Part shown: in pieces, positions 11,545-26,679 of the stretch
Layout: the number at the start of each line of letters is the position of its first letter
Numbering within the stretch: the first letter of the stretch is position 1
Source: Terriglobus albidus
GTDB taxonomy: Bacteria; Acidobacteriota; Terriglobia; Terriglobales; Acidobacteriaceae
Reading direction: 5' to 3'
NCBI RefSeq assembly: GCF_008000815.1
Contig: NZ_CP042806.1
Coordinates: 2,356,001-2,420,000, forward strand
Length of the DNA: 64,000 nt
Program-made: the position numbers and the translations under genes
The notes under the pieces: generated by a model
Database searches by the model: none
What the model was told of the DNA's origin: nothing
What the model saw: only the letters and a program-made list of their open reading frames with translations

Positions 11545-11563
11545 GAGTGATTCCTTTTGATTG

Positions 11564-12493
11564 TTATCTGATCTTTTCAAAGTCGCGATAGTCGTCCACG
11601 TTGGCGCGAGTGACGAGATCGCAGGGGATGATCTGTTTCTCCAGCTTGCCGGTCGAGCCTGTCTTCAGAAAGCGATCAGCTTCGTCGACTGCGAGCCGGG
11701 AGATGACGACGGCAGGCTGCAGCGAAGTGGCCTGTAGTTCGCCGGAACGAATGGCGGTAGCCGCATCGGGTGAGCCGTCGAAACCGGTGACGACGATTCC
11801 TTTGCGGCCCGAGGACTTGACGGCCGCCGCGGCGCCGAGCGCCATGGTGTCGTTGCCGGCGATGATGCCTGCCAGCTTTGCGTGTGCCTGCAGAATGGTC
11901 TCGGTCTTCTGGAAGGCTTCGGCCTGCGACCAGTTGGCTGATTGCGCAGCGACGAGCTTCAGCTGTGGCGCGGTGTCAAGGATCTCGTGAAAGCCCTTGG
12001 TGCGGATCTGCGCGTTGGTGTCGGACTCGCGCCCGAGCAGCTCGGCGTATTCACCTTCTTTAGTGGCACGGGCAAACTCTTCGGCGACGATGCGGGAGCC
12101 TTGATGGTTGTCGGCGATGATCTGCGCGTTGGCTACTCCGGTGACCTGTATCTCGCGGTCGATGAGGAAGACAGCAATGCCTTCGGCCTTTGCGCGACGT
12201 ACGGCAGAGATGGATGACTCCGATCCGGCGTTGTCGAGCACGATAGCCTTGGCTCCGCTAGCGATGGCGGCGTCGATCAGGTTGTCCTGACGGTAGGCGT
12301 CGTCGTTGTGCGCGTCGATGCGGGTACGGTAGCCGAGCTGTTGCGCACGGGCTGCGGCGGCATCACCCTCGGCCTTGAAGTAGGGATTGTCCTGCGAGGG
12401 AACGATGATGGCGATCAGCGGCTTCGAGAGCTCTTCGCGGTGGCAACCAGAAAGAGCGATAGCCCCGGCCAGGAATAGCGGTACGAGCTTCAT
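11564..12493 (-). CDS. Sugar ABC transporter, substrate-binding lipoprotein
   Basis: 309 residues. A short signal sequence ends in the lipobox LSGC (C17), so the mature protein would be a membrane-anchored lipoprotein. The body is the two-lobed periplasmic-binding-protein fold of the ribose/xylose type (Peripla_BP_4), with KPLIAIIVPSQDNPYF at the first strand, IDREI near the middle and IIAGNDTMALGAAAAV in the second lobe. It captures a pentose-like sugar and delivers it to the permease encoded just upstream in the operon. Its start overlaps the permease stop by four bases. The residues that decide sugar identity cannot be read confidently. Confidence 0.9.
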   Translation of the reverse strand: MKLVPLFLAGAIALSGCHREELSKPLIAIIVPSQDNPYFKAEGDAAAARAQQLGYRTRIDAHNDDAYRQDNLIDAAIASGAKAIVLDNAGSESSISAVRRAKAEGIAVFLIDREIQVTGVANAQIIADNHQGSRIVAEEFARATKEGEYAELLGRESDTNAQIRTKGFHEILDTAPQLKLVAAQSANWSQAEAFQKTETILQAHAKLAGIIAGNDTMALGAAAAVKSSGRKGIVVTGFDGSPDAATAIRSGELQATSLQPAVVISRLAVDEADRFLKTGSTGKLEKQIIPCDLVTRANVDDYRDFEKIR

Positions 12494-13560
12494 GCTCCGG
12501 CCTCGGGGTTGGAGCGGAGCAGCAGAGGCAGGAACTTTGCCTGCAGCCGCGACTGGAGCTGATCGATGGCGACCGCAAGGACGATGACGACTCCCTTGAT
12601 GACGATCTGCCAGAACTCAGAGACGCCGAGCATGACCAGCCCGTCGGCGAGCACGCCGATAACGAACGCTCCGATCAGTGAGCCGGTGACGGAGCCGCGT
12701 CCGCCCATCAACGACGTGCCTCCCAGAACGACCGCGGCGATGGCATTCAGCTCAAAGCTCTCTCCTGTAGCCGGGTGAGCGGCTTCGAGCTGCGAGGCGA
12801 TGATGAGCCCAACGAGCGAAGCGCAGAAGGCGGAGAAGAGGAAGGTGTACATCTTCACGCGCGGCACAACAATGCCGGCCAGGCGGGCAGCGCGTTCATT
12901 ACCGCCGATGGCGTAGACGTGGCGTCCGAATGGTGTTTTCGCTGCGATGAAGGCTGCGACGGCAAACAGCGCGAACATCAGCCAGACCGGGATAGGAATG
13001 CGTAGCAGAAAGCTCTGGCCGATGAAGGCAAAGGAAGGGGCGTGCGCGGCAAGGTTCGGGAAGGTCTTACCGTTGGACATCAGCAGGGCAGAACCCCGCG
13101 CGATGTATAGCGTGCCCAGGGTGGCGATAAAAGGAGCGACACCGGCGCGGGAGACCAGCCATCCATTCAACGCGCCGACGATCAGGCAAAGCGCAATGGT
13201 GGCCAGGATGGCAACGAAAACGCCGGGATGATAGGTCGTCCCACCGAGGGTGATGCCCTGGGTGAGGATGTAGCCAGCGGCCATGCCGCCCAGGCCGGCA
13301 ACCGAGCCGACCGACAGGTCGATGCCTCCGGAGAGGATGACGAAGGTCATGCCTATGGCAAGAATGGCGGAGATGGCGACGTGCTTTGTCAGGATGGAGA
13401 GATTGGCTGTCGTAAGGAAGCTCGGCGCCATGGCAGAGAACAGGATGAGCAGCAATACCAGCACGAGGACAGCGCGGGCACGCAGCAGGATGAGTGCGAT
13501 GCGGGCTCCACTGCTGGCCAGACGATCGGACGATGAGAGCGTGGCGGAGATAGAGGTCAT
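12490..13560 (-). CDS. Sugar ABC transporter permease (RbsC/XylH type)
   Basis: 356 residues with about eight to ten hydrophobic segments. The conserved FVILSGGIDLSVGSVAGLGG region (about residues 75-95) and the late AIAAVVLGGTSLMGGRGSVTGSL motif mark the BPD_transp_2 family. It forms the membrane channel for the sugar bound by the lipoprotein encoded next. Four-base overlaps with both neighbours indicate translational coupling within the operon. Confidence 0.93.
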   Translation of the reverse strand: MTSISATLSSSDRLASSGARIALILLRARAVLVLVLLLILFSAMAPSFLTTANLSILTKHVAISAILAIGMTFVILSGGIDLSVGSVAGLGGMAAGYILTQGITLGGTTYHPGVFVAILATIALCLIVGALNGWLVSRAGVAPFIATLGTLYIARGSALLMSNGKTFPNLAAHAPSFAFIGQSFLLRIPIPVWLMFALFAVAAFIAAKTPFGRHVYAIGGNERAARLAGIVVPRVKMYTFLFSAFCASLVGLIIASQLEAAHPATGESFELNAIAAVVLGGTSLMGGRGSVTGSLIGAFVIGVLADGLVMLGVSEFWQIVIKGVVIVLAVAIDQLQSRLQAKFLPLLLRSNPEAGA

Positions 13561-15077
13561 GCGATGCTTCCTGTGGTCACATTCGGACTGGCTGCGGAGA
13601 AGAGCGCTTCGTCGGTCAACTGATGATGCTGAAACTCGGCTGCAATGCGTCCCTGGCAGAGGACGAGGGCGCGGTCGGCGAGCGTTCGCGTCTCTTCAAT
13701 CTCGGAAGAGGTGAAGAGAATACTCAGGCCATTCGCGGCCAGCTTGCGAAGGATGCGATAGATCTCGGCTTTCGCTCCTGCATCGACACCGCGTGTCGGT
13801 TCGTCGAGCAGCAGAACGCGCGGGTTCCGCATGAGGCAGCGCGCGATCAGGACCTTTTGCTGATTGCCGCCCGAAAGCGAGGTGACCGGCAGCTCGAGAT
13901 CGTTGGCCGCGATGTTGAGGTCTTTCGCCAGCTTTCGGACTAACTCGGTCTCGTGCGCGCGTGAGAGCAATGGGCCGTGCGAAGCAGCGAGGGCGACGTT
14001 CTCGCGGATCGACAGTTCGGGAATGAGGCCGTCGCGCTGGCGATCTTCGGGGACAAGCACAATGCCTGCCTTAACCGCGCTGCCAACGGAGTTCAGCTCG
14101 AGCGTGCGGCCTTCGATCTGGATGGAACCCTCGAGGGGTGTGCGGTTTCCCGCGAGCGTCTCCAGCAGTTCGGTTCTACCCGCTCCGAGAAGGCCGTAGA
14201 TGCCCAGGACCTCACCCTTGTGGAGAGTGAATGAGATCTCGTGCAGAGCTGCCTGCGATTCTTCACCCGCGGCGGAGGAGCCGAGCTCCAACTGATGGAC
14301 GGATAGCACGGCCTGGGTGGAGGCAGCGGGACGGACTTGTAGATCTGTGGTGTCGGCGCGGCCTGACATACGTTCCACGATCCACTGCCGCGTGACCTCG
14401 GAACGCGGAGCTTCGCCGACGACGCGGCCGGAGCGCAGGACCGTGAAGTAGTCACCGAGGTGCAGCAGCTCGTGCAGACGGTGCGAGATGTAAACGATGG
14501 TGACGCCCGAGCGTTTCAGGTCTTCGATGACCTCGAAGAGCGATTCTGTTTCTGCCATCGAAAGAGCAGAGGTGGGTTCGTCGAGGATCAGGATCTTTGA
14601 TCCATGAGCGATGGTCCGGGCGAGCTCGACGATCTGCCGGCAGCCGAGCGAGAGATGAGCCGTTTGCGCATTGACCGGCATTGGTTTATGCAGGCGATGG
14701 AGCGCATCGGCCGATTGGGTGTCTTCGGTCTTGCGATCGACCATGGCGGCACGGGTCAGCTCGCGGCCGGCGAAGATGTTCTCGCTGATGTCGAGGTTCG
14801 GCATCACGCTCAGCTCCTGGTGCACGATGCTGATGCCGTGTGCCCCGGCATCGCGCGGACTGCGGAGAGTGATCGGCTTACCGTCGAGCAGGATCGTGCC
14901 TTCATCGCACGACTCTACACCCGACAGGATGCGCATCAGAGTAGATTTGCCGGCGCCGTTCTCTCCGATCAGTACGTTGACTGCATTGCGGTGCAACTTG
15001 AAGTCGACATGGTCGAGCGCGATGTTTCCGGGGTAGCGCTTCAAGATGCCGTTTGCCTGCAGGATCACGTCGCTCAT
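13557..15077 (-). CDS. Sugar ABC transporter ATPase with two nucleotide-binding domains (RbsA type)
   Basis: 506 residues. The first cassette has Walker A GENGAGKST (38-46), a degenerate signature LSLGCRQ and Walker B ILILDEPTSAL. The second has an atypical P-loop, GLLGAGRTE, which is usual for this family, then signature LSGGNQQK and Walker B VLLLDEPTRGVD. It powers uptake through the permease and matches RbsA/XylG/MglA in length and layout. Its ends overlap the kinase gene upstream and the permease gene downstream by four bases each. Confidence 0.94.
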   Translation of the reverse strand: MSDVILQANGILKRYPGNIALDHVDFKLHRNAVNVLIGENGAGKSTLMRILSGVESCDEGTILLDGKPITLRSPRDAGAHGISIVHQELSVMPNLDISENIFAGRELTRAAMVDRKTEDTQSADALHRLHKPMPVNAQTAHLSLGCRQIVELARTIAHGSKILILDEPTSALSMAETESLFEVIEDLKRSGVTIVYISHRLHELLHLGDYFTVLRSGRVVGEAPRSEVTRQWIVERMSGRADTTDLQVRPAASTQAVLSVHQLELGSSAAGEESQAALHEISFTLHKGEVLGIYGLLGAGRTELLETLAGNRTPLEGSIQIEGRTLELNSVGSAVKAGIVLVPEDRQRDGLIPELSIRENVALAASHGPLLSRAHETELVRKLAKDLNIAANDLELPVTSLSGGNQQKVLIARCLMRNPRVLLLDEPTRGVDAGAKAEIYRILRKLAANGLSILFTSSEIEETRTLADRALVLCQGRIAAEFQHHQLTDEALFSAASPNVTTGSIA

Positions 15078-16546
15078 GCGAGGTCCCCCTTCAGGCGGGT
15101 CTGCCGGACGGCGAGCTTCCAGCCTTCATAGTGGGAGGTGCGTTGAGTTGTCGGAAGGAACGTTGTCGACTCCTGCGGAAGCGAGGCAAGGTCAGCCATG
15201 CTGTGCCACCACCCAAGTGTGAGCCCGCCGAGCCAGGCAGCGCCGAGCGCCGAAAGGTCTTCGCAACTGGAACGATGGACTGGCACATGCAGCAGGTCCG
15301 CTTGAAACTGCATCAGGGCACTGTTGCGGGTCGCGCCTCCGTCGGTGTGCAGGGCTGGGAGGTCTACACCGGCGGCATCGCGCATGGCGTGAAAGACATC
15401 CGCGACCTGGTAAGCGATGGCGTCCACTGCGGCGCGGGCCATATGCTCTCGTCTGCTGGTGTGGCTAAGGCCGGTGAGTGTGCCCCGTGCGGCAGAGTCC
15501 CAGTAGGGGGCTCCGAGACCGACCATCGCGGGGACAAAGTAGACCCCTGCTGCATCTGAAACGCTCTCGGCAAGAGCTACGGCATCGCGTGTAGGATCGC
15601 CGAGATTGAGGAACTCTCCCACCCACTGCACGGCTGACCCAGTCATGGTGATGTTGCCTTCGAGGGCGAAGTGAGCTGTCCCATTGTGCGACCAGGCGAT
15701 GGTGCGTGCCAGGCTCTGTGTCGGTGCTGGCAGGCCCGGTGTCAGCGTCATCAGCGACGAGCCGGTGCCATAGGTTGCTTTAATGGTTCCCGGTGTATAG
15801 CTTCCATGGCCCACCATTGCTGCGTGAGAATCTCCAATCGCGGAGACGATGGGGACGCCCGCAAGCTCTGGAATCGCTGAGACCTCGCCAAGCAAGGATG
15901 AGGAGCAGGCGAGCTGAGGCATCGCGACTTGCGGAATGGCGAAAAGGTCGAGTAGATCGCGATCCCACTGCAAGGTCTCCAGATCGAGCAGCGCTGTACG
16001 CGATGCATTTGTATGATCGGTGACGTGGGCTGCACCGCCGGTCAGCTTGTAGACAAGCCAGCTATCGACGTTGCCCAGGCAAAGCTCTCCCCGTTCCGCC
16101 CGGGCTCGCAACGCAGGATTCTGCTGGAGCAGCCAGCTCCATTTAGTTGCGGACACAAGTGGGTCGAGCGGCAGGCCGGTGCGCTCCCGGATGAGATCCG
16201 TTTGTGTGGCAAGTTGCCTGCAGATGGCCTCGCCTCGCCGGCACTGCCAGCTGATCGCATTGGCCGCGGGGCTGGCGTCGGCACGATACCAGGTCACGGC
16301 GGTCTCCCGCTGGTTGGAGATGGCGATACCTTTGATCCCGACTGCGCCGCTATGGGCGATGCACTCCCGTATGACGGTGAGTACCGACTGCCACAGCGCT
16401 TCGGGATCTTGCTCGACCATGCCAGGTTGGGGCGTTAGCAGCGTAAGCGGTGCAGACGCACGAAATACCGGCTGTCCATCGTTGCCGACGAGGAGAGCCT
16501 TGGTATTCGTTGTTCCCTGATCGATGGCGAGGATGAGGTCGGACAT
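15074..16546 (-). CDS. FGGY-family carbohydrate kinase (candidate D-apulose kinase)
   Basis: 490 residues. The N-terminus LILAIDQGTTNTKALLVG is the phosphate-1 motif of the sugar kinase/actin fold. The acceptor region includes ISWQCRR, and the C-terminal half has TYGTGSSLM and TDGGATRNSALMQFQADLL. It is close in layout to glycerol kinase, but the operon carries isomerase and transketolase genes rather than glycerol-3-phosphate genes. In the known transketolase route for D-apiose, an FGGY kinase phosphorylates D-apulose, and that is the proposed role (inference). A plain glycerol or ketopentose kinase is the main alternative. Confidence 0.82.
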   Translation of the reverse strand: MSDLILAIDQGTTNTKALLVGNDGQPVFRASAPLTLLTPQPGMVEQDPEALWQSVLTVIRECIAHSGAVGIKGIAISNQRETAVTWYRADASPAANAISWQCRRGEAICRQLATQTDLIRERTGLPLDPLVSATKWSWLLQQNPALRARAERGELCLGNVDSWLVYKLTGGAAHVTDHTNASRTALLDLETLQWDRDLLDLFAIPQVAMPQLACSSSLLGEVSAIPELAGVPIVSAIGDSHAAMVGHGSYTPGTIKATYGTGSSLMTLTPGLPAPTQSLARTIAWSHNGTAHFALEGNITMTGSAVQWVGEFLNLGDPTRDAVALAESVSDAAGVYFVPAMVGLGAPYWDSAARGTLTGLSHTSRREHMARAAVDAIAYQVADVFHAMRDAAGVDLPALHTDGGATRNSALMQFQADLLHVPVHRSSCEDLSALGAAWLGGLTLGWWHSMADLASLPQESTTFLPTTQRTSHYEGWKLAVRQTRLKGDLA

Positions 16547-16555
16547 GATCTACGC

Positions 16556-17524
16556 CTACTTGTTCTCTCCCAGCAGATCGAGTGCCGCGTTCACCATGCC
16601 GTCTGCGTTCAGATGAAAGTGATCGAGCAGAAACTCCGCGGACCCGGTAGGTGCGAAGACGTCAGGAAGGCCAAGCATGCGCATCGGTGCAGGGTGATGG
16701 AGCGCGAGCACCTCGGCGACCGCTCCGCCCAGGCCTCCGGCGGTGAGTGCTTCTTCGACGGTGACAATGCCGCGGGTCTCTTTCGCGGCTTTGATGATTG
16801 CGTCGTAATCGAGCGGTTTGATGCTGCTCATATTCAGCACGCGGGCGAAGATGCCGCGTTGTTCCAGAAGCTTCGCGGCCTGCAGTGCCCGAGCTACCAG
16901 GATGCCGTTGGTGATGATGGTGACATCGTCTCCGTCATTCATCAGTGCGGCCCGGCCCAGGGTGAACTGATATCCGCGATCATGTACTTCAGGCACCGGA
17001 ACGCGGCTGATGCGAAGGAACATGGGGCCATCGTGCCGCAGCGAATAGCGCATGACCTGCTCGGTTTCCAGGGGATCCGCCGGAACGATCACGGTGAGAT
17101 TCGGGATGATGCGTGTCCAGGCCATGTCTTCGATGGAGTGGTGGGTGGCGCCAAGCTGCCCATAGGCCATGCCGGAGGACATGCCGCATAGCTTGACATT
17201 CCATTTGGAGTAGCCAAGATCGACCTTTACCTGTTCCATGGCGCGGGCGGTCAGGAAACAGGAGGCTCCGCATACGTAGGGGACCATGCCTCCGTTGGCC
17301 AGGCCGGCGCCGACACCGACCATGTTCTGCTCCGCAATGCCGACGTTGACGAACCGGTCGGGGAAGAGTTCCTTGAACTTCTTGAGCTTGGTCGAAGAGA
17401 CCGAGTCATTGACGACGGCGCAGACACGTTTGTCCTGCGCGGCCATCTCTTCGAGGGTTCTGGAGTAGGCTTCGCGGCAATCGTAAGTCTTGGCCGATGT
17501 CTCAACGGGAGCAGCGACTACCAT
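16556..17524 (-). CDS. Transketolase, C-terminal subunit
   Basis: 322 residues, holding the pyrimidine-binding domain and the C-terminal domain of a split transketolase. AYSRTLEEMAAQDKRVCAVVND opens the domain. FVNVGIAEQNMVGVGAGLA supplies the glutamate that activates thiamine diphosphate. VTVEEALTAGGLGGAVAEV marks the C-terminal domain. It pairs with the subunit encoded just upstream, overlapping it by seven bases. Two-subunit transketolases of this size include the apulose-4-phosphate transketolases as well as ordinary split enzymes. The kinase gene follows after nine bases. Confidence 0.9.
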   Translation of the reverse strand: MVVAAPVETSAKTYDCREAYSRTLEEMAAQDKRVCAVVNDSVSSTKLKKFKELFPDRFVNVGIAEQNMVGVGAGLANGGMVPYVCGASCFLTARAMEQVKVDLGYSKWNVKLCGMSSGMAYGQLGATHHSIEDMAWTRIIPNLTVIVPADPLETEQVMRYSLRHDGPMFLRISRVPVPEVHDRGYQFTLGRAALMNDGDDVTIITNGILVARALQAAKLLEQRGIFARVLNMSSIKPLDYDAIIKAAKETRGIVTVEEALTAGGLGGAVAEVLALHHPAPMRMLGLPDVFAPTGSAEFLLDHFHLNADGMVNAALDLLGENK

Positions 17525-18354
17525 GGGACCTCCACTCCGAGTTCTTCCGCCGCCATGAAAAGCTGCTCACGGGTCGGCACACCATGATGCCAAGCGGGCT
17601 TGTTCTCTGCAAAGCTGACGCCTTTTCCTTTGACCGTATTTGCGATGATGCAGGTGGGTTTGCCGGGTTCGAGAGGGAGCGACTGAAAGACCTGCATCAG
17701 CTCTTCGTGATTATGTCCATCGACTTCGCGCACGGCAAAGCCGAAGGAGGACCACTTCGGCGCGAGCGGATCCATCTGAATCGTGTTTTCGGTGAAGTCA
17801 CCCTGCTGAATCCGGTTGCGGTCTACGATGACCGTCAGATTATCGAGTTTGTAATGGTGAGCGGTCATAGCGGCCTCCCAGTTGGAGCCTTCCTGCAGCT
17901 CACCATCGCCGGTAAGGACGAAGACCCGCCAGTGCTCACCGCGCATCTTCGCCGCAAGGGCAGCGCCGACGGCGATCGGTGCTCCATGGCCCAGGGGGCC
18001 GGTATTCGCTTCCACTCCGGGCAGCTTGTTCCGGTCCGGATGTCCATTCAGCATGGACAGCGGGTCCATAAAGGTCTTGAGCTGTTCGACCGGGAAAAAG
18101 CCACGGGCGGCGAGTGTTGCATAGAAGGCGCCCGAACAGTGCCCCTTGGACATGATGAAGCGATCTCTCTGCTCCCAGTGGGGCCGCGCGGGATCGACCG
18201 CCAGAATTCCACCCAGGTAGAGACAGGTAAGAACGTCGGCAGAGGAGAGGTCGCCGCCGGTGTGACCCAGTTGCGAATGATGGGTCATCGACATCGCACG
18301 GATGCGGGTCAGGTTTGCAGCTTGTTGCAGGTGTTTCAAGGATGATTCCGCCAT
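17518..18354 (-). CDS. Transketolase, N-terminal (thiamine-diphosphate-binding) subunit
   Basis: 278 residues. The thiamine diphosphate/magnesium motif runs from GDGELQEGSNWEAA to VIVDRNR. Conserved histidines are present in MTHHSQLGHTGG, SKGHCSG and TGPLGHG. It is the first gene of the seven-gene minus-strand operon. The promoter must lie in the AT-rich stretch 18355-18440, where no terminator-like hairpin is seen. It forms the active enzyme with the C-terminal subunit encoded downstream. Confidence 0.91.
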   Translation of the reverse strand: MAESSLKHLQQAANLTRIRAMSMTHHSQLGHTGGDLSSADVLTCLYLGGILAVDPARPHWEQRDRFIMSKGHCSGAFYATLAARGFFPVEQLKTFMDPLSMLNGHPDRNKLPGVEANTGPLGHGAPIAVGAALAAKMRGEHWRVFVLTGDGELQEGSNWEAAMTAHHYKLDNLTVIVDRNRIQQGDFTENTIQMDPLAPKWSSFGFAVREVDGHNHEELMQVFQSLPLEPGKPTCIIANTVKGKGVSFAENKPAWHHGVPTREQLFMAAEELGVEVPW

Positions 18355-18498: not shown

Positions 18499-18528
18499 TT
18501 GACAAGCCGTAAGGCGAACAAGCATAGT
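18499..18528 (+). promoter_or_regulatory. Promoter of the phosphodiesterase-glpP operon
   Basis: A consensus -35 box TTGACA (18499-18504) and a CATAGT -10 box (18523-18528) with an 18-base spacer. Transcription would start near 18535, just before the conserved leader element. Confidence 0.65.
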
Positions 18529-18530
18529 CC

Positions 18531-18559
18531 TAATCGACACGGCAGAGATCAGAGAGCCG
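18531..18559 (+). promoter_or_regulatory. Conserved leader element (candidate antiterminator site)
   Basis: The leader has ATCGA, then CGGCAGAGA (18540-18548), then TC, GA and AGCCG. The same sequence occurs in the leader of the MFS operon at 26617-26644 (minus strand). CGGC (18540-18543) can pair with GCCG (18556-18559), which also forms the 5' arm of the following terminator. The two hairpins are therefore mutually exclusive, as in antiterminator-controlled leaders. Confidence 0.65.
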
Positions 18560-18611
18560 TACAAAGCCAGGCATTTTTATGCCCGGTTTTGTACGGCTTT
18601 TGTGTTTTTGT
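18555..18611 (+). terminator. Leader terminator upstream of the phosphodiesterase gene
   Basis: An 11-bp perfect stem AGCCGTACAAA/TTTGTACGGCT (18555-18565 with 18588-18598) continues inward with a few more pairs around a TTTTTA loop. It is followed by TTTTGTGTTTTTG. It lies about 20 bases after the probable transcription start and before the coding start, the position of an attenuator. Confidence 0.85.
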
Positions 18612-18644
18612 ACTTCTTTCGCCGCATTACCTTTTGGAGGCTCC

Positions 18645-19997
18645 TTGAGGCTAGCAGTATCCATTTTCCTGTCAGGTGTGATGATGTGTTTCGCGACAGC
18701 ACTGTCAGCGCAGACGCATCGCCCGGTGTTAATGATCTCGATTGACGGCCTTCGGCCTGACTATGTCACACGGGCGGACCAGCACGGCCTCAAAATTCCC
18801 AACCTCCGCCGGATACTTGCGGAGGGTGCTCACGCGGAGGGGGTGGTGAATGTGTCGCCGACTGTGACCTATCCCAACCACACCACCCTGGTCACGGGAG
18901 TTCTGCCGTCAGAGCACGGTATCTATAACAATGAGCTCTTCGATCCCGAAGGGAAGGAGCATGGTGGCTGGTACTGGTATGCCCAGGCGGTGCAGGCTCC
19001 GACCCTATGGCAGGCAGCAAAGGATGCAGGGTTGGTGACAGCGAGTGTTTACTGGCCTGTCACGGTCAAGGCCAGTGGAATTGATTACAACATTCCGGAG
19101 TATTTTCGTCAGCGGACGCAGCCGGACCGGTATATGGAGGAGGCTGTCTCGCGCCCCGCTGGAATGCTGGAGGAGCTGGAGCAGAAGGCCGGGCCATTCA
19201 ACATACGCAATTCGGACGCCGTCTTTGATGAGACGGTGACGCGGACGACGATTGCGATGATCGAAAGCCGGCATCCTGACTTTCTAACGGTCCATATTGT
19301 CTCGTTGGACCATGTGGAGCACGAACACGGTCCTTTCAGCCCGGAGGCGAACGCTGACCTGGAGAAGATCGACGAGATGGTGGGCCGTATCGCGATAGCG
19401 CAACGCAAGGTACATCCGAATGGAGTAATCGCCGTAGTTTCGGATCACGGCTTCAGTGCGGTGCGGCACCGGGTCTATCTGAACTCGGCACTGGTCAAAG
19501 AAGGTTTTATCTCGCTTTCAGGACACGAAAAGGCGACGGTGGATCGGTGGAGTGTCTTCGCCTGGCCGGCGGGCGGCACCGCCATGATGATGCTGCGTGA
19601 TAAGGGTGACGCTGAAACGGAAAAGAAGGTGCAGATCCTGTTGGCAAAGCTCGCGGCAGATCCACGCTATGGAATCGCCGAGATCGTCTCGCACGAGAAG
19701 GCTGTGCAACAGGGAATGAACCCCGACGTCGCTTTTGTCGTGAATTTCAAACCGGGATATCGCATGGCGGTTGGTTTCGCCGAGCCGGAATTGGAAGACC
19801 TCACAAAGGACGAAGGTACCCACGGCTATATGAACACGCTCGACGAGATGCACTCCTCGTTCTTTGTCGAAGGTCCCGGCGTTGCGAAAGGGAAGAATCT
19901 GGGAGTGATCGATATGCGACAGATTGCGCCGACGATTGCAGGGCTGCTGGGAGCGAAGCTTGATACGGCCAAATCTCCAAGGTTATCGCTGCAATGA
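18645..19997 (+). CDS. Exported ENPP-type phosphodiesterase/nucleotide pyrophosphatase (alkaline phosphatase superfamily)
   Basis: About 450 residues from the TTG at 18645, preceded by GGAGG. An in-frame ATG at 18579 lies inside the leader terminator stem and is rejected. A signal peptide ends around ALSAQT. Metal ligands and nucleophile follow the phosphodiesterase pattern: MISIDGLRPDYV, nucleophile threonine in TYPNHTTLVTG, VSLDHVEHEHGP and VVSDHGFSAV. Such enzymes cleave nucleotide or glycerol phosphodiesters outside the cytoplasm. The stop overlaps the start of the glpP-like gene. That pairing suggests the enzyme may release a ligand related to glycerol 3-phosphate (inference). Confidence 0.85.
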   Translation: MRLAVSIFLSGVMMCFATALSAQTHRPVLMISIDGLRPDYVTRADQHGLKIPNLRRILAEGAHAEGVVNVSPTVTYPNHTTLVTGVLPSEHGIYNNELFDPEGKEHGGWYWYAQAVQAPTLWQAAKDAGLVTASVYWPVTVKASGIDYNIPEYFRQRTQPDRYMEEAVSRPAGMLEELEQKAGPFNIRNSDAVFDETVTRTTIAMIESRHPDFLTVHIVSLDHVEHEHGPFSPEANADLEKIDEMVGRIAIAQRKVHPNGVIAVVSDHGFSAVRHRVYLNSALVKEGFISLSGHEKATVDRWSVFAWPAGGTAMMMLRDKGDAETEKKVQILLAKLAADPRYGIAEIVSHEKAVQQGMNPDVAFVVNFKPGYRMAVGFAEPELEDLTKDEGTHGYMNTLDEMHSSFFVEGPGVAKGKNLGVIDMRQIAPTIAGLLGAKLDTAKSPRLSLQ

Positions 19998-20650
19998 AAA
20001 TTGAGTACCCTGATCTAGAGGTATTGAAAAGAGGGTACGTGGAGCGCAGCAGGGAAACCCGTCGCCAGGACGAGCGCGAGACATCGCCTCGAGTCAGGCA
20101 GACGCTGATCGATACGCCGATTATTGCGGCGGTGAATGAGCCGCCTGCATTCGAAGTGGCTCTCCAAAGCCCTCCGCGAGCGGTATACCTGCTGACGGGA
20201 AATCCTCTGTCTCTCCCTGGCATGCTGCAGCGAGCGGCGGAACAGGGAAAGCAATGCCTGGTCAATATCGACTTTCTCGACGGACTGGCGCGCGACCGGT
20301 TTGCGGTGGAGTTTCTCGCGAGCCATAACGTCGCCGGAATCGTCTCGACACGCTCCGAGATACTAAAGGCCGCGCAATCCTTTGGCTTGATTACCGTACA
20401 GCGCACGTTCAGCCTTGATTCGGCGGCCGTGACCGCCACTCGCCGGTCACTGGCGCAGTTCCTTCCGGATGCGGTGGAGGTGCTGCCTGCGATGGCAGCA
20501 CCCAAGGTAGCGCGGAAGTTGCTGGAAGACCATCCCTCACTGCGGATTATTGGGGGAGGGCTGATCGAGACCGTCAAAGAGATCGAGGACCTTCTGGCTG
20601 CGGGGATTCACGCGGTCTCCGTCAGTGATCAGCGGTTGTGGATTATTTAG
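19994..20650 (+). CDS. glpP: Glycerol-3-phosphate-responsive antiterminator (GlpP family)
   Basis: 218 residues. From IIAAVNEPPAFEVAL onward the protein matches the GlpP TIM-barrel family (PF04309), with a CLVNIDFLDGLARD strand, GIVSTRS, VQRTFSLDSAAV, EVLPAMAAPKV and a phosphate-binding IIGGGLIET near the end. A charged N-terminal extension of about 40 residues precedes the barrel. GlpP of Bacillus binds glycerol 3-phosphate and prevents termination in glp mRNA leaders. The gene overlaps the phosphodiesterase by four bases and converges with the dehydrogenase gene, with an 8-base overlap of 3' ends. Two terminator-bearing leaders with a shared sequence lie nearby and are its likely targets (inference). 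Confidence 0.88.
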   Translation: MKIEYPDLEVLKRGYVERSRETRRQDERETSPRVRQTLIDTPIIAAVNEPPAFEVALQSPPRAVYLLTGNPLSLPGMLQRAAEQGKQCLVNIDFLDGLARDRFAVEFLASHNVAGIVSTRSEILKAAQSFGLITVQRTFSLDSAAVTATRRSLAQFLPDAVEVLPAMAAPKVARKLLEDHPSLRIIGGGLIETVKEIEDLLAAGIHAVSVSDQRLWII

Positions 20651-21692
20651 CAACCTTTTGCTGTGTAAGTACCTCTGGATTTGCGCAATAACGCAGGGTT
20701 CCGTTCTGAAGGTAGTTTCCCAATTCCTCTGCTGCGATGCGGGTTGCTTTGATAGCAGCCTGCTTAGTGCCTCCGGCGATGTGCGGTGTGGTGATGAAGT
20801 TTGGGAGTTGCAGCAGGCTTGAGCCGGTGGGGAGCGGTTCCTCAGGAAAGACATCTGCTGCTGCCGCAAACAGGTGTTCGGAGCGAAGCGCTTGTTCGAG
20901 AGCCTGATAATCCATCAGCGCACCGCGAGCGCAGTTGACGACGACAGCGCCGCGCTTGAGCTTCCGGATCTGTTCCGCGCCAAGGATATGGCGGGTTTCA
21001 GCGGTCTCGCGGGCGTGGAGTGAGACGACATCGGAGCGTTGCAACAACTCGTCCAGAGTCGCTACCTGGATTGCGGGTGAGTCTTCAGTCATGCGCGCAT
21101 AAGGGTCATAGCAGAGAACGGTTGTACCGAATCCGCGCAGGATGCGGGCAACGATGCCGCCGATGGCGCCGTAGCCTATAAGACCGACGGTTGCGGTTTC
21201 AAGCTCAAAGCCGGCGCTGTCCCACGTGTAATCGCCCTTCCACTCACCGCGATGAAGAGCAGCATGCGTCTGTGGAATGAAGCGGAGTGCACTCAGCATC
21301 ATGGCGATGGTATGTTCCGCCGTTGCTGCAGCGTTTCGTGCCGGTGTGTAGGCGATGGCGATGCCGTGCTCCGTGGCCGCCGGTACGTTGACGTTGACCG
21401 GACCGCCGCGGCACACGATGAAGAGGCGAAGGTCTTTTGCCTGTTCCATCACGCGCCGAGTGAGAGGAGCATGATGTGCGATGCAGATGGAAACACCCTG
21501 GAGAACGTCGACCATCTGCTCTTCCGAGCCGGAGGCCTCGCGTACCTCGGCGATATTGCGGAACGGCTCGATGGGAAAAGGAGTCGATGCTTCGGTGACC
21601 TCGAAGCGATCGGCAAGCTCACCAAGGGAGGTGCGCATGAGCTGCGACGAGATGAAGTTGTCTCCAATGACGAGAAGCTTTTCTTGAGGCAT
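20643..21692 (-). CDS. D-2-hydroxyacid dehydrogenase (phosphoglycerate dehydrogenase-like)
   Basis: 349 residues. The NAD-binding segment VGLIGYGAIGGIVARILRGFG lies mid-protein. Catalytic-site segments are VNCARGALMD (arginine), an acidic residue in DVFPEEPLP, and TTPHIAGGT (histidine). It oxidises a D-2-hydroxyacid or reduces the keto form with NAD(H); the substrate is not evident. It is the last gene of the minus-strand MFS/kinase/phosphatase operon, overlapping the phosphatase gene by one base. It may convert a sugar-acid intermediate of that pathway. Confidence 0.87.
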   Translation of the reverse strand: MPQEKLLVIGDNFISSQLMRTSLGELADRFEVTEASTPFPIEPFRNIAEVREASGSEEQMVDVLQGVSICIAHHAPLTRRVMEQAKDLRLFIVCRGGPVNVNVPAATEHGIAIAYTPARNAAATAEHTIAMMLSALRFIPQTHAALHRGEWKGDYTWDSAGFELETATVGLIGYGAIGGIVARILRGFGTTVLCYDPYARMTEDSPAIQVATLDELLQRSDVVSLHARETAETRHILGAEQIRKLKRGAVVVNCARGALMDYQALEQALRSEHLFAAAADVFPEEPLPTGSSLLQLPNFITTPHIAGGTKQAAIKATRIAAEELGNYLQNGTLRYCANPEVLTQQKVAK

Positions 21693-22327
21693 TACAGGGA
21701 AGTCTCCTTCGTGGGAAGTGGGAGGGGGGCATTGAACGACAAAAGACTTACGGCGGAGTTAGGCCGTATCTCGATCTCGGTGATGGCGCAGTTATGAAAG
21801 GTCGGAAACAGGTCCCGGTAGCGAGATAGCGAGATTCCAAGAGCCCGGCAGAGGACGAGCCGCAGCAGCGTGCTGTGGGCGACGACCAGTGCGTGTCCAT
21901 GCGGGGGAAGGGGCGCTGCGATGGAGCGAAGAGCGGCGAGGCCGCGTTCGGCGGCTGTGACTGGATCTTCGCCACCGGGCATGTGATGGAGGACAGGATC
22001 GCCGCGGAATGCAGCGAGAGCTTCGGGCATGATCGTCTGCAACTCGCTCTTCGTGTGCCCTTCGGCTCGCCCGAAGTCCAGCTCAAGGAGGCGGTCGTCG
22101 GTCTGGAGCTTCAGCCCCAGAGCTTCTGCCGCAGGAGTAGCCGTCTTGATGGCGCGAGAGAGTGATGACGACCATACAGACTGAATGCTGGTGGTTGCTG
22201 CCCAGCGTGCAAGCCGTCCGGCCTGCTGGATACCTTTGGGTGTGAGCGCGATGTCGGTTCGGCCGGCGTAGCGGTTTTCGGCGTGCCATATGGTCTCACC
22301 GTGGCGGACGAGGAAGAGGCGGCTCAT
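21692..22327 (-). CDS. Histidine phosphatase superfamily protein
   Basis: 211 residues from the ATG at 22327, which overlaps the kinase stop in the pattern ATGA. The LVRHGETIWH motif gives the phosphorylated histidine, and HALVVAHSTLLRLVLC supplies the second catalytic histidine. It is closest in layout to the small-molecule phosphatase branch (GpmB/CobC/PhoE type) rather than true phosphoglycerate mutase. In an operon with two FGGY kinases it may dephosphorylate a sugar-phosphate intermediate or limit its build-up (inference). Confidence 0.85.
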   Translation of the reverse strand: MSRLFLVRHGETIWHAENRYAGRTDIALTPKGIQQAGRLARWAATTSIQSVWSSSLSRAIKTATPAAEALGLKLQTDDRLLELDFGRAEGHTKSELQTIMPEALAAFRGDPVLHHMPGGEDPVTAAERGLAALRSIAAPLPPHGHALVVAHSTLLRLVLCRALGISLSRYRDLFPTFHNCAITEIEIRPNSAVSLLSFNAPLPLPTKETSL

Positions 22328-23790
22328 TGCATTATCCCCTTGATCGCTGCGCATGCCAGCGCGGGATCCAGCCAGCCCCGCTGCTTCAGTTCTTTTACAA
22401 ATTTTTGGTACTGCTCCAGATACATCGAGGACTGTCCTGTGGGTTCGATCGTTTTTTCGATATGCACCATGCGCTTGGCGGCATGATGCAGTGAGTCGGT
22501 TGAGGATGCTGCAAGAACGGCCATGCCGAATGCGGCTTCCGTCACAGAGGGGATGATGAGGGGACGGCGAAGAATATCAGCGCGGATCTGATTGAAGGCC
22601 TCGCTCTTTGTGGCTCCGCCGGAGATAAAGAAGTCGCCTTCCCGGGGAGCGCCGCCCGCGACCATGACATCCACGCAGAGCCGCTCGGTGCAGGCGATGC
22701 CTTCGAGGATTGCGCGATACTTCATCTCATCGGAGCCGGATTGCCCGAGGGCGAAGCAGGTGGCATCGGAGTTTGAGAAGGGGAAGCGCTCTCCGCGTCC
22801 ACTGAGCGGATACATCACGATGCCGGTGGGGTCGTCTGCCGCTGCCGCTGATTGGTTGAGGCGTGGAAGATCCTTCGCCTTGAACTCTTTCGCAATGATT
22901 CCTGCGCCGATATTGGACGCTCCTCCAGGGAGCCACATTCCATCGGCGGAACGGTGGGAATAGATGACCCCGCGGGGATCGTGGAGAAGATCAGGCGTCA
23001 CACCCTTCAATACGAGTGTTGTGCCGATGACAGAGCTCCAGCTCCCGGGACTGACGGCACCAGATGCGATCTGCGAGGCGCAGCCATCGGTCATACCGGC
23101 GTAGATGGGGGTGTCGGTGGGGATGCCTGTTTCCTGGACGGAGCGGCGTCCTGTCACTCCGATGCGAATACCGGGGCGAACAACTTTTGGCAAAAGCCCT
23201 GAATCGATTCCCAGTGTGTTGAGGACATCGTCAGGCCACCTGTCTTCGAGTTGATGGTATCCAGTTTTGAGGGCATTACTGCTGTCCGTTGGAAGCAGTA
23301 CGCCTGCCATCCGTGCATTGATGAAATCGTTCTGATGGAGAATGCGGCGGTCGGGCGAAAGAAAGCCGTGACGCGAGAGCCATACGATCTTGGGGAGAGC
23401 CCAGGAAGGCTGCATGCGATAGCTCATCTGCTGCCAGACGCCATCGCCAACACGATTGACTTCGTCAACCTCCGCCAGCGCCCTGGCATCGTCATACATC
23501 AGGGCCGGGCCGCAGGGGCGGAGCTGAGAGTCGGTGACGACGATCGTGCCCGAAGTTGCGTCGACAGCGATCCCAAGAATGGGAGCGCCGGCGAGCTGTC
23601 TGGTGACCGCAGAGCAACTGGCACAGACCGCACTCCACCAGTCTTCAGCATTCTGCTCGTGACGAATCCCGTTTCGTGTGCTGGTGAGCGACGCAGAAGA
23701 GGATGCAACGACGCGACCTGCGATCGTTACCGCCATCACCTTTACGCTCTGTGTGCCGAGATCGATGCCGAGATAGACGGGCTCCATCAT
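22324..23790 (-). CDS. FGGY-family carbohydrate kinase (second of a tandem pair)
   Basis: About 488 residues from the ATG at 23790, which follows a GGGGGAGAG ribosome binding site and overlaps the upstream kinase stop. The phosphate-1 motif YLGIDLGTQSVKVMAV and a late FISGGATKSEAFNQIRADILRRP identify the xylulokinase-like branch. The central MYDDARA segment occupies the substrate-contact position. It phosphorylates a ketose or polyol that is not identified. It is translationally coupled to a different FGGY kinase upstream and a phosphatase downstream. Confidence 0.87.
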   Translation of the reverse strand: MMEPVYLGIDLGTQSVKVMAVTIAGRVVASSSASLTSTRNGIRHEQNAEDWWSAVCASCSAVTRQLAGAPILGIAVDATSGTIVVTDSQLRPCGPALMYDDARALAEVDEVNRVGDGVWQQMSYRMQPSWALPKIVWLSRHGFLSPDRRILHQNDFINARMAGVLLPTDSSNALKTGYHQLEDRWPDDVLNTLGIDSGLLPKVVRPGIRIGVTGRRSVQETGIPTDTPIYAGMTDGCASQIASGAVSPGSWSSVIGTTLVLKGVTPDLLHDPRGVIYSHRSADGMWLPGGASNIGAGIIAKEFKAKDLPRLNQSAAAADDPTGIVMYPLSGRGERFPFSNSDATCFALGQSGSDEMKYRAILEGIACTERLCVDVMVAGGAPREGDFFISGGATKSEAFNQIRADILRRPLIIPSVTEAAFGMAVLAASSTDSLHHAAKRMVHIEKTIEPTGQSSMYLEQYQKFVKELKQRGWLDPALACAAIKGIMQ

Positions 23791-25268
23791 CTCTCCCCCC
23801 GAAGCATCTGCCACTGCGACGATGAGGAATCGCGCAATGCGAGCCAGGTTTTGTAGCGACGGGAGAAGAGGTCGTATTCGGCGGTGCGCGCGACGAAGGT
23901 GGTTGTCTCCGTCTCGATGCTGAGAGAGACCTTCTGCGCGTGATCGATGTTGCCTGCGGTCTTAAGAGCCCAAAGGAAGGCGCCCAGTGCGCCAAGTTCG
24001 TTGCCTGCCGGGCGAACTACATTGCGTCCGGTAACATCTGCGATCATCTGGCACCAGAAATCACTCCGCGCTCCTCCACCGGCGACAGATACGCTCTGCA
24101 GGGCAGGATGCGCAGTACGTTCGAGGCATTCGCGGATGACAAAGGCGAGGCCTTCGTACAAGGCATGAGCAATCTGCGATGGAGAGGTGTTGAACGACAG
24201 ACCATGAAAGCTGCCGCGAGCCTTCGGTTCGAGGAAGGGAGCTCGTTCTCCGGCAGCGGAGAGATAGGGCAGGAAGAAGGCACCATCCCGCGATACACAC
24301 TCTGCCTGCGCAAGCTGTTCGAGTCGCTGCTGATCTCCGCCTGCAAAGAGTGTCGAGCCCCAGCGTAGAGCCTCGCAACCCGTGAGGGTCGGCATGGCGC
24401 GAAGGAACTGCCCGTCTTCAAACGCGATGGTTGTGCCAGAGGCGGCTTGTGCGAGATCCATGTCAGGAAGAATGGTCTCGGTGCAGATGGTTGTGCCCAG
24501 AATGACGCATGCCCGTTCGGGCGTGTTGACGCCGCAGCCAAAAGCCGTCGTGACGATGTCGTAAGGAGCCATCAAAACAGGAATGCCTGCGGGAAGTCCC
24601 ATCTGCTGTGCCGCGGTCGACGTGAGTGGAGCGCTGAGATCGTTTCCCTGAGCGATGGGAGGCAGCTTCTCAAGATGTTCTTCGAGCTGAAAGAGCTCGA
24701 GCAGATCTGGAGAGTACTGCCGATGTTTGATGTCGCAGAAGGGGTTGGATGCATCAGAGAGGTCAGCGGCATAACGACCAGTCATGCAGGAAAAGAGCCA
24801 TCCGTTGCAGGTAAGCGCCCAGCGCGCGCGCGTCAGCGTCTGTGGTTCATGCAGTGAGAGCCAGCGGAGAATTGCATTTGGCAAGCCCGGATACGAAGCG
24901 GATCCCGAGATGTGGAAGGCTCGGTCGATAATACCTTCTTCGTGCCAGCGTTCGACAATCTCGTATGAACGGCCATCGTTCCAAAGAATGGCGTTGCGCA
25001 CCGGGATGCCGGAGGCGTCGACAAGCCAGCAGCCATCTCCTTGTGCTGTGGAGACGATACCTTCGATCGGCTCGCCGCACTGTTGTGCGGTCTGGCGAAC
25101 GGTCGATGCGACTGCCTGCCACATGCTTTCCTGGCTCTGCTCGGAGTACTCATTCTGAGGACGCAGTACTTCCGTGTTGGCGCGCGAGAGGGCTAGCTCC
25201 TTGCCGGTGTGGCTAAAGGCGACTGCTTTGATGACGGTCGTTCCTGCGTCAATTGCGATCCAGGCCAT
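23787..25268 (-). CDS. FGGY-family carbohydrate kinase (first of a tandem pair)
   Basis: 493 residues. WIAIDAGTTVIKAVAF is the phosphate-1 motif. ILWNDGRS marks the substrate region, and SVAGGGARSDFWCQMIADVTGRNV the adenosine-binding region. It differs clearly from the second kinase, so the pair is not a recent duplication. Related enzymes include xylulokinases and erythritol/ribulokinase-like kinases. It follows the MFS gene after two bases, which suggests that the imported compound or its product is phosphorylated here. The substrate is unknown. Confidence 0.87.
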   Translation of the reverse strand: MAWIAIDAGTTVIKAVAFSHTGKELALSRANTEVLRPQNEYSEQSQESMWQAVASTVRQTAQQCGEPIEGIVSTAQGDGCWLVDASGIPVRNAILWNDGRSYEIVERWHEEGIIDRAFHISGSASYPGLPNAILRWLSLHEPQTLTRARWALTCNGWLFSCMTGRYAADLSDASNPFCDIKHRQYSPDLLELFQLEEHLEKLPPIAQGNDLSAPLTSTAAQQMGLPAGIPVLMAPYDIVTTAFGCGVNTPERACVILGTTICTETILPDMDLAQAASGTTIAFEDGQFLRAMPTLTGCEALRWGSTLFAGGDQQRLEQLAQAECVSRDGAFFLPYLSAAGERAPFLEPKARGSFHGLSFNTSPSQIAHALYEGLAFVIRECLERTAHPALQSVSVAGGGARSDFWCQMIADVTGRNVVRPAGNELGALGAFLWALKTAGNIDHAQKVSLSIETETTTFVARTAEYDLFSRRYKTWLALRDSSSSQWQMLRGER

Positions 25269-25270
25269 GG

Positions 25271-26548
25271 TCAGATCTCGGAGTGCGATTCGTTAGGAAT
25301 GGTCAGGGTCCAGGCGAGCAGGCTGCTCAGCAGGTAGAGGCCGGCGAAGATCCACATGAGACCACCGATGCCAACAGAGTGATAGAAGATGCGTACGAGG
25401 CCAGGCCCGACGAGCATGGCGCCGCCCGCGCCGAGGCTGAGTAGCGAGAGTGCTTCGCCACGATTCTCCGGAGCGAGCATAGGGGCAAGCGCAGAGAGTG
25501 GGACATAGCCCGCGAGTGTAGCGCCGTAGAGCATGCCAATGGCGACGCTGAGGCCATAGCTCTTCGTGGCCAGTGGGACGTAATAGAGCGCAAGCGTGGT
25601 GATGGTACACCCCAGGCCGCCACAGATGGCCACAGTTTGCCGCCATCCAAATCGGTCTCCGATGAGGCCAAAGAGCAGGTTCCAAATGATGTTGGAGAGG
25701 AAGATAGCGCTCAGCAGGGTGAGAAACTGCGCCTGGGTCAGGCCGATTCTGTCCTGGAAGAAGGCCGGAAGAATAACGAAGAATCCAAACTCGGGCGCCG
25801 TGTTGATGACGCGTACGACGCAGGCAATTCCAGTCTTCGGCTTCCGCCATGCCAGCGTGACTGAGTTGAGCAGGGCGTGGAAGGGATTGTCGTTTTCAGC
25901 GATGAGGCGTGAGTTGCCGCGAGGCTCGCGGACGCCGATCAGCAGAACCGCTCCTCCGGTGAGAACCAGAGCTGTGGCAATCCAGAAGGTACCGTACTGG
26001 CCGAAGTAGGGAATCGACAGTCGGGCTACCTGAGATCCCAACGTGGGGAGGCCTCCCGTAAAGGCAAACCAGAACCAGCCCATGGCGGAGGCGAGGCGAT
26101 GTTTGGGGGCGGCGAGTGTGATCCACACCAGGAAGCCGAAGGCGAAGAGCGGATAGCCGAGACCGCGCAGGCCGTAGGTCATCAGGACTGCGGGATAGGC
26201 GGCATGCTGCAGGCCGAGGGTTAGGAAAAGCACCTGAAAGAGAAGCCAGAGGATAAGGCCGATCTTGATAACCCGGCGTGGCCCCCACACGTCTGAGAGG
26301 GCTCCGGAGAGCCACCCGGCCAGGGCTGCCATTGCTCCATAAACAGAAGAGATCGTTGCCGCATCGCCGATGGTGAGTCCTCGGCTGACGAGGTAGGGGG
26401 TGAAGAAGCCTGATTCGACGCCATCGCCGATCATGAACAGCAGCAGGCCAACAAAACCCCACAGAAGAACAGGGGGAATGCCGATGGCCTCGAGCCGCGA
26501 AGAGCTCTTGGATGCCAATGTCTCTGGGAATGAGGCCGTAGATTCCAT
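25271..26548 (-). CDS. MFS transporter
   Basis: 425 residues from the ATG at 26548. A longer frame to 26674 is rejected because it would start inside the promoter and run through the leader terminator. About twelve hydrophobic segments are present. The loop SGALSDVWGPRRVIKIG carries the MFS motif between segments 2 and 3, and LIGDRFGWRQTV is its counterpart in the second half. It is the first gene of the operon that continues with two sugar kinases, so it most likely imports a sugar or polyol. The leader carries a candidate antiterminator site and a terminator. Confidence 0.87.
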   Translation of the reverse strand: MESTASFPETLASKSSSRLEAIGIPPVLLWGFVGLLLFMIGDGVESGFFTPYLVSRGLTIGDAATISSVYGAMAALAGWLSGALSDVWGPRRVIKIGLILWLLFQVLFLTLGLQHAAYPAVLMTYGLRGLGYPLFAFGFLVWITLAAPKHRLASAMGWFWFAFTGGLPTLGSQVARLSIPYFGQYGTFWIATALVLTGGAVLLIGVREPRGNSRLIAENDNPFHALLNSVTLAWRKPKTGIACVVRVINTAPEFGFFVILPAFFQDRIGLTQAQFLTLLSAIFLSNIIWNLLFGLIGDRFGWRQTVAICGGLGCTITTLALYYVPLATKSYGLSVAIGMLYGATLAGYVPLSALAPMLAPENRGEALSLLSLGAGGAMLVGPGLVRIFYHSVGIGGLMWIFAGLYLLSSLLAWTLTIPNESHSEI

Positions 26549-26575
26549 GGGACCGCCCTTCGTGTGCCGTAAAAA

Positions 26576-26624
26576 CGTAAAAAGCCGCCCCAGCACCCAT
26601 GGAAGACGGGCGTGGGGCGGCTTT
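26576..26624 (-). terminator. Leader terminator upstream of the MFS gene
   Basis: A 12-bp perfect stem AAAGCCGCCCCA/TGGGGCGGCTTT (26613-26624 with 26581-26592), with extra imperfect pairing inside. On the minus strand it is followed by TT, ACG and a second T-run. It lies between the promoter and the MFS start at 26548, the position of an attenuator. Confidence 0.85.
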
Positions 26625-26644
26625 CGATTCTCTGCCGCTATCGA
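26617..26644 (-). promoter_or_regulatory. Conserved leader element (candidate antiterminator site), MFS operon copy
   Basis: On the minus strand: ATCGA, then GCGGCAGAGA, then ATC, GAAAGCCGC. It shares nearly every base with the leader at 18531-18559. GCGGC (26634-26638) can pair with GCCGC (26617-26621), which also starts the terminator's 5' arm. Confidence 0.65.
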
Positions 26645-26649
26645 TGTGG

Positions 26650-26679
26650 ATAATGCCTTAGAGGGGGACCGCATGTCAA
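26650..26679 (-). promoter_or_regulatory. Promoter of the MFS/kinase operon
   Basis: A consensus -35 TTGACA (26679-26674) and a CATTAT -10 (26655-26650) with an 18-base spacer, the same architecture as the promoter at 18499-18528. Confidence 0.65.

Follow-up and report, generated by a model that had tools for sequence, protein, structure and literature searches.

The two facing operons at positions 18499-26679 of the Terriglobus albidus DNA analysed here (a stretch of 64,000 nucleotides from a 6.4-Mb genome, from now on referred to as the window) appear to form an antitermination regulon of the GlpP-family protein encoded in one of them, with two known members in this genome. We put the probability of this reading at roughly 0.87. 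The plus-strand operon encodes a phosphodiesterase (PF01663) and the GlpP-family protein (PF04309), and the minus-strand operon encodes, in this order, an MFS (major facilitator superfamily) transporter, two FGGY kinases, a histidine-superfamily phosphatase and a D-2-hydroxyacid dehydrogenase. Each is preceded by a leader in which a short hairpin overlaps an intrinsic terminator, the hairpin shows compensated variation among related leaders, and the element is associated with GlpP and with the glycerol genes of relatives. In the proposed mechanism, each leader RNA would by default fold into the terminator and transcription would halt before the first gene. Ligand-charged GlpP would bind the purine loop of the hairpin at the 5' end of the RNA (AGAGA..GA, on a CGGC/GCCG stem) and keep this hairpin closed. 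The 3' arm of the closed hairpin would then be unavailable to the terminator, and RNA polymerase could read into the phosphodiesterase-glpP and MFS/kinase operons. Glycerol 3-phosphate, or a polyol phosphate close to it, would be the ligand. An earlier reading of the same DNA (the original prediction) had proposed that a GlpP-family protein reads a shared leader element and controls both operons. The neighboring PF04309 gene, the co-occurrence of leader and GlpP, the glp targets in relatives and the compensated hairpin all support this proposal at the level of sequence, with RNA binding and antitermination by GlpP as its putative steps.

Both leaders have the predicted promoter layout, namely TTGACA, an 18-base spacer and a -10 box with four of six matches. 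These two promoters are the only 10-of-12 matches among the 7 promoter-like sites found between 16000 and 30000, a count that is not by itself above chance (shuffle mean 5.5). The common element reads CGGCAGAGATCAGAGAGCCG in the plus leader (18540-18559) and CGGCAGAGAATCGAAAGCCG in the minus leader (26637-26618). A few bases 3' of the -10 box, both leaders can form a 5-bp hairpin of the form A/GCGGC-AGAGA..GA-GCCGT/C with a 12-nt loop. Folding and arm mapping recovered the strong terminator that had been predicted before each first gene, with energies of -31.5 (plus) and -33.8 kcal/mol (minus); a simple scan for terminators had picked up no more than the inner part of the plus one and had missed the minus one. 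Folded in isolation, the antiterminator hairpins have energies of -6.4 (plus) and -8.3 kcal/mol (minus). Since the terminator is far more stable than the small hairpin, it is expected to be the default structure and the hairpin would need help, and we infer that such a weak hairpin fits stabilisation by a protein. The hairpin's 3' arm sits within the 5' arm of the terminator in both leaders, again as predicted, and because GCCGT or GCCGC is used by both structures, antiterminator and terminator are mutually exclusive. One predicted part of the leader element, ATCGA, did not survive: it is present in only 5 of 28 aligned leaders and was rejected as part of the conserved element. The pattern CGGCAGAGAN{4,12}AGCCG occurs at 6 places in the whole genome (reversed control, 1), and the four places other than the two leaders show no promoter or terminator by eye. 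As a separate observation, the loop of the minus terminator (26596-26604) is fully complementary over 9 nt to the start-codon region of the MFS gene (26543-26551), a pairing that could add a translational layer.

The gene described as glpP-like in the original prediction indeed encodes a full-length PF04309 protein above the curated cut-off (E 1.1e-48, 165.4 bits, cut-off 27, profile positions 1-173 of 173 covered) and is the single copy found in the genome. Using phmmer, the protein can be linked to the solved structures 3kts (8.6e-21) and 1vkf. It keeps all 14 columns, first Met included, that are invariant in an alignment of nine GlpP proteins spanning Acidobacteriota, Bacillota and Streptomyces. 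The gene is 92% identical to a Terriglobus albidus glpP and 97% identical to the glpP of an Acidobacteriaceae metagenome-assembled genome.

A search for the leader in related genomes, one of the checks proposed initially, showed that it tracks GlpP. A covariance model of the leader, R1, was searched in 300 genomes of the family, confident sites being those at E<=1e-6; this search ran with stricter filters and may have missed weak sites in genomes with or without GlpP. PF04309 is present in 17 of the 300 genomes, and confident sites were found in 15 of these 17 compared with 0 of the 283 others. Nine of the 15 site-bearing genomes had fed R1 and two more (G128 and G248) are close kin of the window. 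Among the remaining GlpP genomes, 4 of 6 have sites (G087, G254, G281 and G293; Fisher 5e-8 against 0/283), a p-value that is only a guide because G254, G281 and G293, three of the four untrained matches, belong to the same genus as G008, which was used in the model, and because genomes are not independent. A second model, R2, was based on 13 leaders from other genomes and excluded the two window leaders (win+ and win-) and the G148 polyol leader. In the 64-kb window, R2 ranks the two leaders first and second (4.8e-7 and 8.5e-5), the third match having an E-value of 0.25. In the whole genome the minus leader again ranks first (4.7e-5); this search, whose first pass scores only part of the candidates, did not return the plus leader. 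R1 matches between 1e-6 and 0.01 occur in 11 of the 283 GlpP-less genomes, ten of which have no good terminator there (scores 5.5 to 15); the matches in the eleventh, G116, look genuine. A GlpP search across 347 genomes of the phylum returned nothing above cut-off outside the family, two weak partial sub-threshold matches being dropped. A strict motif, CGGCAGAGN{3,6}GARAGCCG, was rejected as it gave 30 mostly chance-like places in 27 of the 300 genomes, with promoter-like and terminator sequence visible by eye at 6 of them (two in G000, two in G248, one each in G128 and G064); it was afterwards relaxed by reading the leaders beside glpP. At three loci of one genus (L037, L039 and L040), the DNA just upstream of glpP resembles, by eye, the end of a LacI-type regulator, which suggests a mixed DNA/RNA regulatory pair.

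The coupling of hairpin and terminator was found at every site tested. All 27 sites (25 from GlpP genomes and two from G116) have a terminator score of at least 24, with all 5 nt of the antiterminator 3' arm held in the terminator's 5' arm. G087 was dropped from this test because its site lies at a contig end, and locus L010 and a sixth G148 site, located before glpD, were left out. As the detector looks near the antiterminator 3' arm, it was also applied to 600 random places as a control, of which 6 score 24 or more, and all ten weak matches in GlpP-less genomes score at most 15. An alignment of 28 leaders that was fitted to the model has 96.4% of the cells of the 5-bp stem paired and 9 cells changed on both sides, a number matched by 0 of 500 shuffles; the covariation score exceeds every shuffle and every slid register. 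The hand-collected set of 16 leaders contains 4 cells changed on both sides (0/500 shuffles). Compensated stem changes, for which the original prediction had suggested a covariation check, are present on two of the five pairs. Across the aligned leaders the loop measures 12-18 nt.

Similar elements are found next to glpP in other phyla. Of 40 plasmid-collection records with a GlpP match, 13 were read, and 8 of these 13 loci carry the element beside glpP, including Peptoclostridium with loop and stem but no clear terminator. The detector flagged element and terminator at glpP in four loci (L075, L079, L081 and L082), and its four calls at other places look like chance; for L076, L077, L078 and L128 the judgement was made by eye. 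The leader of Cytobacillus glpF reads GUGA-AAGAGAUUAAGAGAC-UCAC, with the element also found in the glpD leader, that of Streptomyces GUUACU-AGAGACCAGAGAAC-AGUAAC and that of Paenibacillus GGUUUG-AGACCAGGAGA-CAAACC. The Bacillota and Streptomyces stems are unrelated in their letters to the Acidobacteriota stem, yet still complementary, and surround AGAGACCAGAGA-like purine loops. Partner-swap permutations reached the matched score in 0 of 200000 trials with 12 leaders and in 7 of 200000 with nine, a test weakened by the fact that leaders were found and flanks cut by eye. The nine-leader set left out Peptoclostridium, G103 and win-, Enterococcus raffinosus was kept out of both sets as a near-duplicate of E. 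gilvus, and the bulged stem of G254 leaves it just 2 contiguous pairs. This cross-phylum complementarity is the strongest sign that the pairing is important and that recognition takes place at the loop. It also bears on the idea that a repressor or activator uses the conserved block as a DNA operator immediately 3' of the promoter, the terminator being incidental. The block does lie a few bases 3' of the -10 region in the aligned leaders, a plausible repressor position, but an operator is very improbable given that the stem sequence differs wholly between phyla while staying complementary, that its 3' arm is within the terminator arm at 27/27 tested sites and that the associated regulator belongs to an antiterminator family.

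Several observations, in addition to the kinship of three untrained genomes with G008, weigh against GlpP as the reader of this element. Family covariation is carried by two of the five stem pairs, two others never vary and one departs only by unpaired cells; a count of two pairs with changes on both sides is reached by 39 of 500 shuffles in the 16-leader set and by 107 of 500 in the 28-leader set. With the detectors used, no element was found at the glpP loci of E. coli, Arthrobacter, Cupriavidus and Fusobacterium (4/13), and Vescimonas is doubtful, a possible weaker element seen by eye upstream of an FAD-oxidoreductase operon not being counted. In the T. albidus genome G128, glpP and the MFS leader remain, and the phosphodiesterase gene beside glpP appears by eye to be reduced to a remnant with its leader gone. 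In G059, GlpP is present only as broken pieces and no site was found, possibly reflecting joint decay of regulator and sites; the pieces lie at L046 (G059:C162:10405-10957), with a stop codon in one of them. G268 encodes an intact GlpP, again with no site found. G116 (L125, G116:C56) carries two divergent terminator-coupled elements (E 3.8e-5 and 0.002), one of them before glpD, with no GlpP found using PF04309 or alignment A2; the site may be orphaned, or its regulator may have been lost or be missing. Both G116 and G268 would fit if the leader were a small protein-free riboswitch or attenuator that senses a metabolite itself, with glpP a mere neighbor. We consider this very unlikely, as sites follow GlpP (15/17 versus 0/283), elements of this kind turn up next to glpP in other phyla, the loop has only 12-18 nt and Rfam, T-box and riboswitch families included, gives 0 matches above gathering score in the window and only a tmRNA in nine glpP loci.

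Glycerol catabolism is the commonest named theme among the leader's targets in relatives, though not the sole one. In G034, the leader precedes an FGGY kinase, glpD and MIP gene set (glpK-glpD-glpF), and open reading frames (ORFs) of equal size follow it in G233 (not scanned). glpD is located directly behind the leader in G064, G101 and G008 and, by position, in G148. In G293, leader and glpD are separated by an outer-membrane receptor gene, and in G254 and G281 by an unscanned ORF of 1193 or 1232 residues. G064 also has a leader before an esterase-FGGY-MIP (esterase-kinase-aquaporin) set. Outer-membrane receptors are found behind the leader in G148, G158 and G064. Less expected are an enolase-superfamily protein and an alpha/beta hydrolase at L010, a GH106-family protein as the second gene in G148 and a transaldolase-like protein in G103. 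Further leader-associated proteins in G034, G148 and G158 have weak lamin-tail or propeller matches. The predicted position of the regulon outside the classic glp genes thus holds for the two sites of the window's genome and fails for the family, where the leader precedes glp genes. Neither of the two confident sites in the window's genome is on glpF, glpK, glpD, glpT or glpQ, its own glpK and glpF not having been sought by name. The sole DAO_C gene found there (glpD) has repeats instead of a leader upstream and apparently no longer belongs to the regulon. A GC-rich imperfect palindromic repeat, starting with AGCATTT..CCTGTTGCTGG and containing GCGTTTTCATTG..GGAAAACGC, was seen upstream of glpD in three Terriglobus genomes (L139, L140 and L141) and downstream of a T. 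albidus glpP (L034). It looks like a dispersed element of small size, which could have taken the place of the glpD leader.

Phylogenetic analysis groups the window GlpP with those of G128 and G248, one G148 copy (G148_2) and one G034 copy (G034_2), at 100/100. An intact ortholog of the MFS transporter (at least 68% identity) is present in exactly 5 of the 300 genomes, the same five as in this GlpP clade, and all other matches are at most 53% identical or, in G248, a broken second copy (66%, with stops). All five clade genomes carry the leader on the MFS gene, and the order of the whole five-gene operon was confirmed by Pfam in G034. GlpP probably steers sugar-alcohol and phosphodiester use here rather than only glycerol use. 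G148 and G034 each hold a second, glp-type GlpP, and in these two genomes the polyol-operon sites have loops of 12-13 nt and the seven other sites loops of 15-18 nt. We hypothesize a specificity split between the two GlpP types in G148 and G034, against which counts one long-loop site (G034a) that adjoins a polyol-clade glpP. Keeping the mechanism as proposed, this clade could also have exchanged glycerol 3-phosphate for a different polyol phosphate as its ligand, for example the product of an FGGY kinase of the facing operon. The coincidence of the clade with the MFS/kinase operon, the second glp-type GlpP of G034 and G148, the loop-length difference and the leaderless glpD of the window's genome would fit such a switch, which is nevertheless less likely than not, with all 14 family-invariant residues kept, site G034a beside a polyol-clade glpP and a ligand that sequence cannot reveal. 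Tentatively, and with a little less than even odds, GlpP may read a portable cross-phylum RNA site (a purine loop near AGAGAYCARGAGA on a sequence-free stem), and a duplicate of GlpP in Terriglobus and one related genus may have assumed a polyol/phosphodiester program, in which it would use short-loop sites of its own and possibly a new ligand. This duplicate would act alongside the glycerol GlpP or in its place. The stem sequence of such a portable site would be free because the stem only has to mirror the local terminator.

The features of the two operons are collected in Table 1. The MFS transporter matches TIGR00897 with 505.8 bits (NCBIfam cut-off 375). The phosphodiesterase probably starts at TTG 18645 behind GGAGG, the longest ORF beginning at 18579, within the terminator. 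A second sugar operon, divergent from that of glpP and without an R1 site, is located on the minus strand (10132-18354). It encodes a fucose-isomerase-like protein, an ABC transporter, an FGGY kinase and a transketolase apparently split in two, names assigned by eye except for the N-terminal part of the transketolase (profile match).

Table 1 Coordinates of leader elements and genes of the two facing operons in the window.
Feature	Position	Strand	Basis
Promoter of phosphodiesterase-glpP operon: TTGACA, 18-nt spacer, CATAGT	18499..18528	+	Promoter block conserved in aligned leaders
Candidate GlpP site/antiterminator hairpin: ACGGC (18539-18543), loop AGAGATCAGAGA (18544-18555), GCCGT (18556-18560)	18539..18560	+	Predicted; folding, covariation
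Intrinsic terminator: arms 18555-18574 and 18579-18598, T tract; 5' arm includes antiterminator 3' arm	18555..18601	+	
Type I phosphodiesterase/nucleotide pyrophosphatase (PF01663); N terminus signal-peptide-like by eye	18645..19997	+	Profile match
GlpP-family antiterminator protein (PF04309); overlaps phosphodiesterase stop	19994..20650	+	Profile match, tree
D-2-hydroxyacid dehydrogenase, last gene of facing operon	20643..21692	-	
Histidine-phosphatase-superfamily phosphatase	21692..22354	-	
FGGY carbohydrate kinase 2	22324..23814	-	
FGGY carbohydrate kinase 1	23787..25268	-	
MFS transporter, RbtT/DalT/CsbX (polyol) family, NCBIfam TIGR00897; probable start ATG 26548	25271..26548	-	
Leader terminator of facing operon: arms 26624-26613 and 26592-26581, T tract	26574..26624	-	
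Candidate GlpP site/antiterminator hairpin: GCGGC (26638-26634), loop AGAGAATCGAAA (26633-26622), GCCGC (26621-26617)	26617..26638	-	Predicted; folding, covariation
Promoter of MFS/kinase operon: TTGACA from 26679, 18-nt spacer, CATTAT to 26650	26650..26679	-	Promoter block conserved in aligned leaders

These results provide a concrete candidate RNA site for GlpP that can be tested, and define an antiterminator whose formation excludes the terminator. They would extend GlpP-type control from Bacillota to Acidobacteriota, with the same architecture beside glpP in a Streptomyces, and show the leader to precede outer-membrane receptors, hydrolases and a polyol operon as well. With this site, GlpP regulons can be predicted from sequence, and a route opens to the ligand of the uncharacterised MFS/two-kinase pathway. 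The mechanism itself is already known, as GlpP antitermination has been described in B. subtilis: parts of PMC9604022 report that GlpP together with glycerol 3-phosphate disrupts terminators in leaders each holding a GlpP site, and parts of PMC7430163, which also covers LicT recognition, that GlpP binds the antiterminator. Decay of glpP mRNA is treated in passages of PMC3997798 and PMC7509114, and the letters GlpP denote other things in those of PMC13098282 and PMC11542873. A literature search found no description of such a cross-phylum site; it did not cover the B. subtilis GlpP-site papers, which may already draw the hairpin. New are an account of the site across phyla that makes the antiterminator explicit, the proposed use of this site by Acidobacteriota and the link between one GlpP clade and an operon that is not part of glp.

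The system shares with B. subtilis GlpP, which acts on glpD, glpFK and glpT according to parts of PMC9604022, a PF04309 protein, the order promoter, GlpP site, terminator and gene, a terminator in the 5' untranslated region and, in the window's relatives, glycerol genes as targets. It differs in its Acidobacteriota host, in its phosphodiesterase-glpP and MFS/two-kinase targets and in its GC-rich CGGC/GCCG stem, the Cytobacillus leaders standing in for those of B. subtilis in this comparison. In the BglG, SacY, LicT and GlcT systems, the ribonucleic antiterminator (RAT) hairpin overlaps the terminator. RAT-type antitermination and the leaders described here thus have in common an antiterminator hairpin, stabilised by a protein in the former and putatively so in the latter, that overlaps a terminator; the protein family is unrelated (PF04309), and the hairpin here combines a short stem and a large purine loop, where RAT has a bulged stem. 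ANTAR sites consist of two hairpins, unlike the single hairpin found here, and the window GlpP matches no Pfam ANTAR family. The likeness to ANTAR antitermination, exemplified by EutV (parts of PMC3369931), would be that of an RNA-binding protein acting by antitermination. Finally, Thermotoga maritima GlpP (1vkf), compared by protein only, is similar in that part of PMC3750489 names it the RNA-binding regulator of the glycerol pathway.

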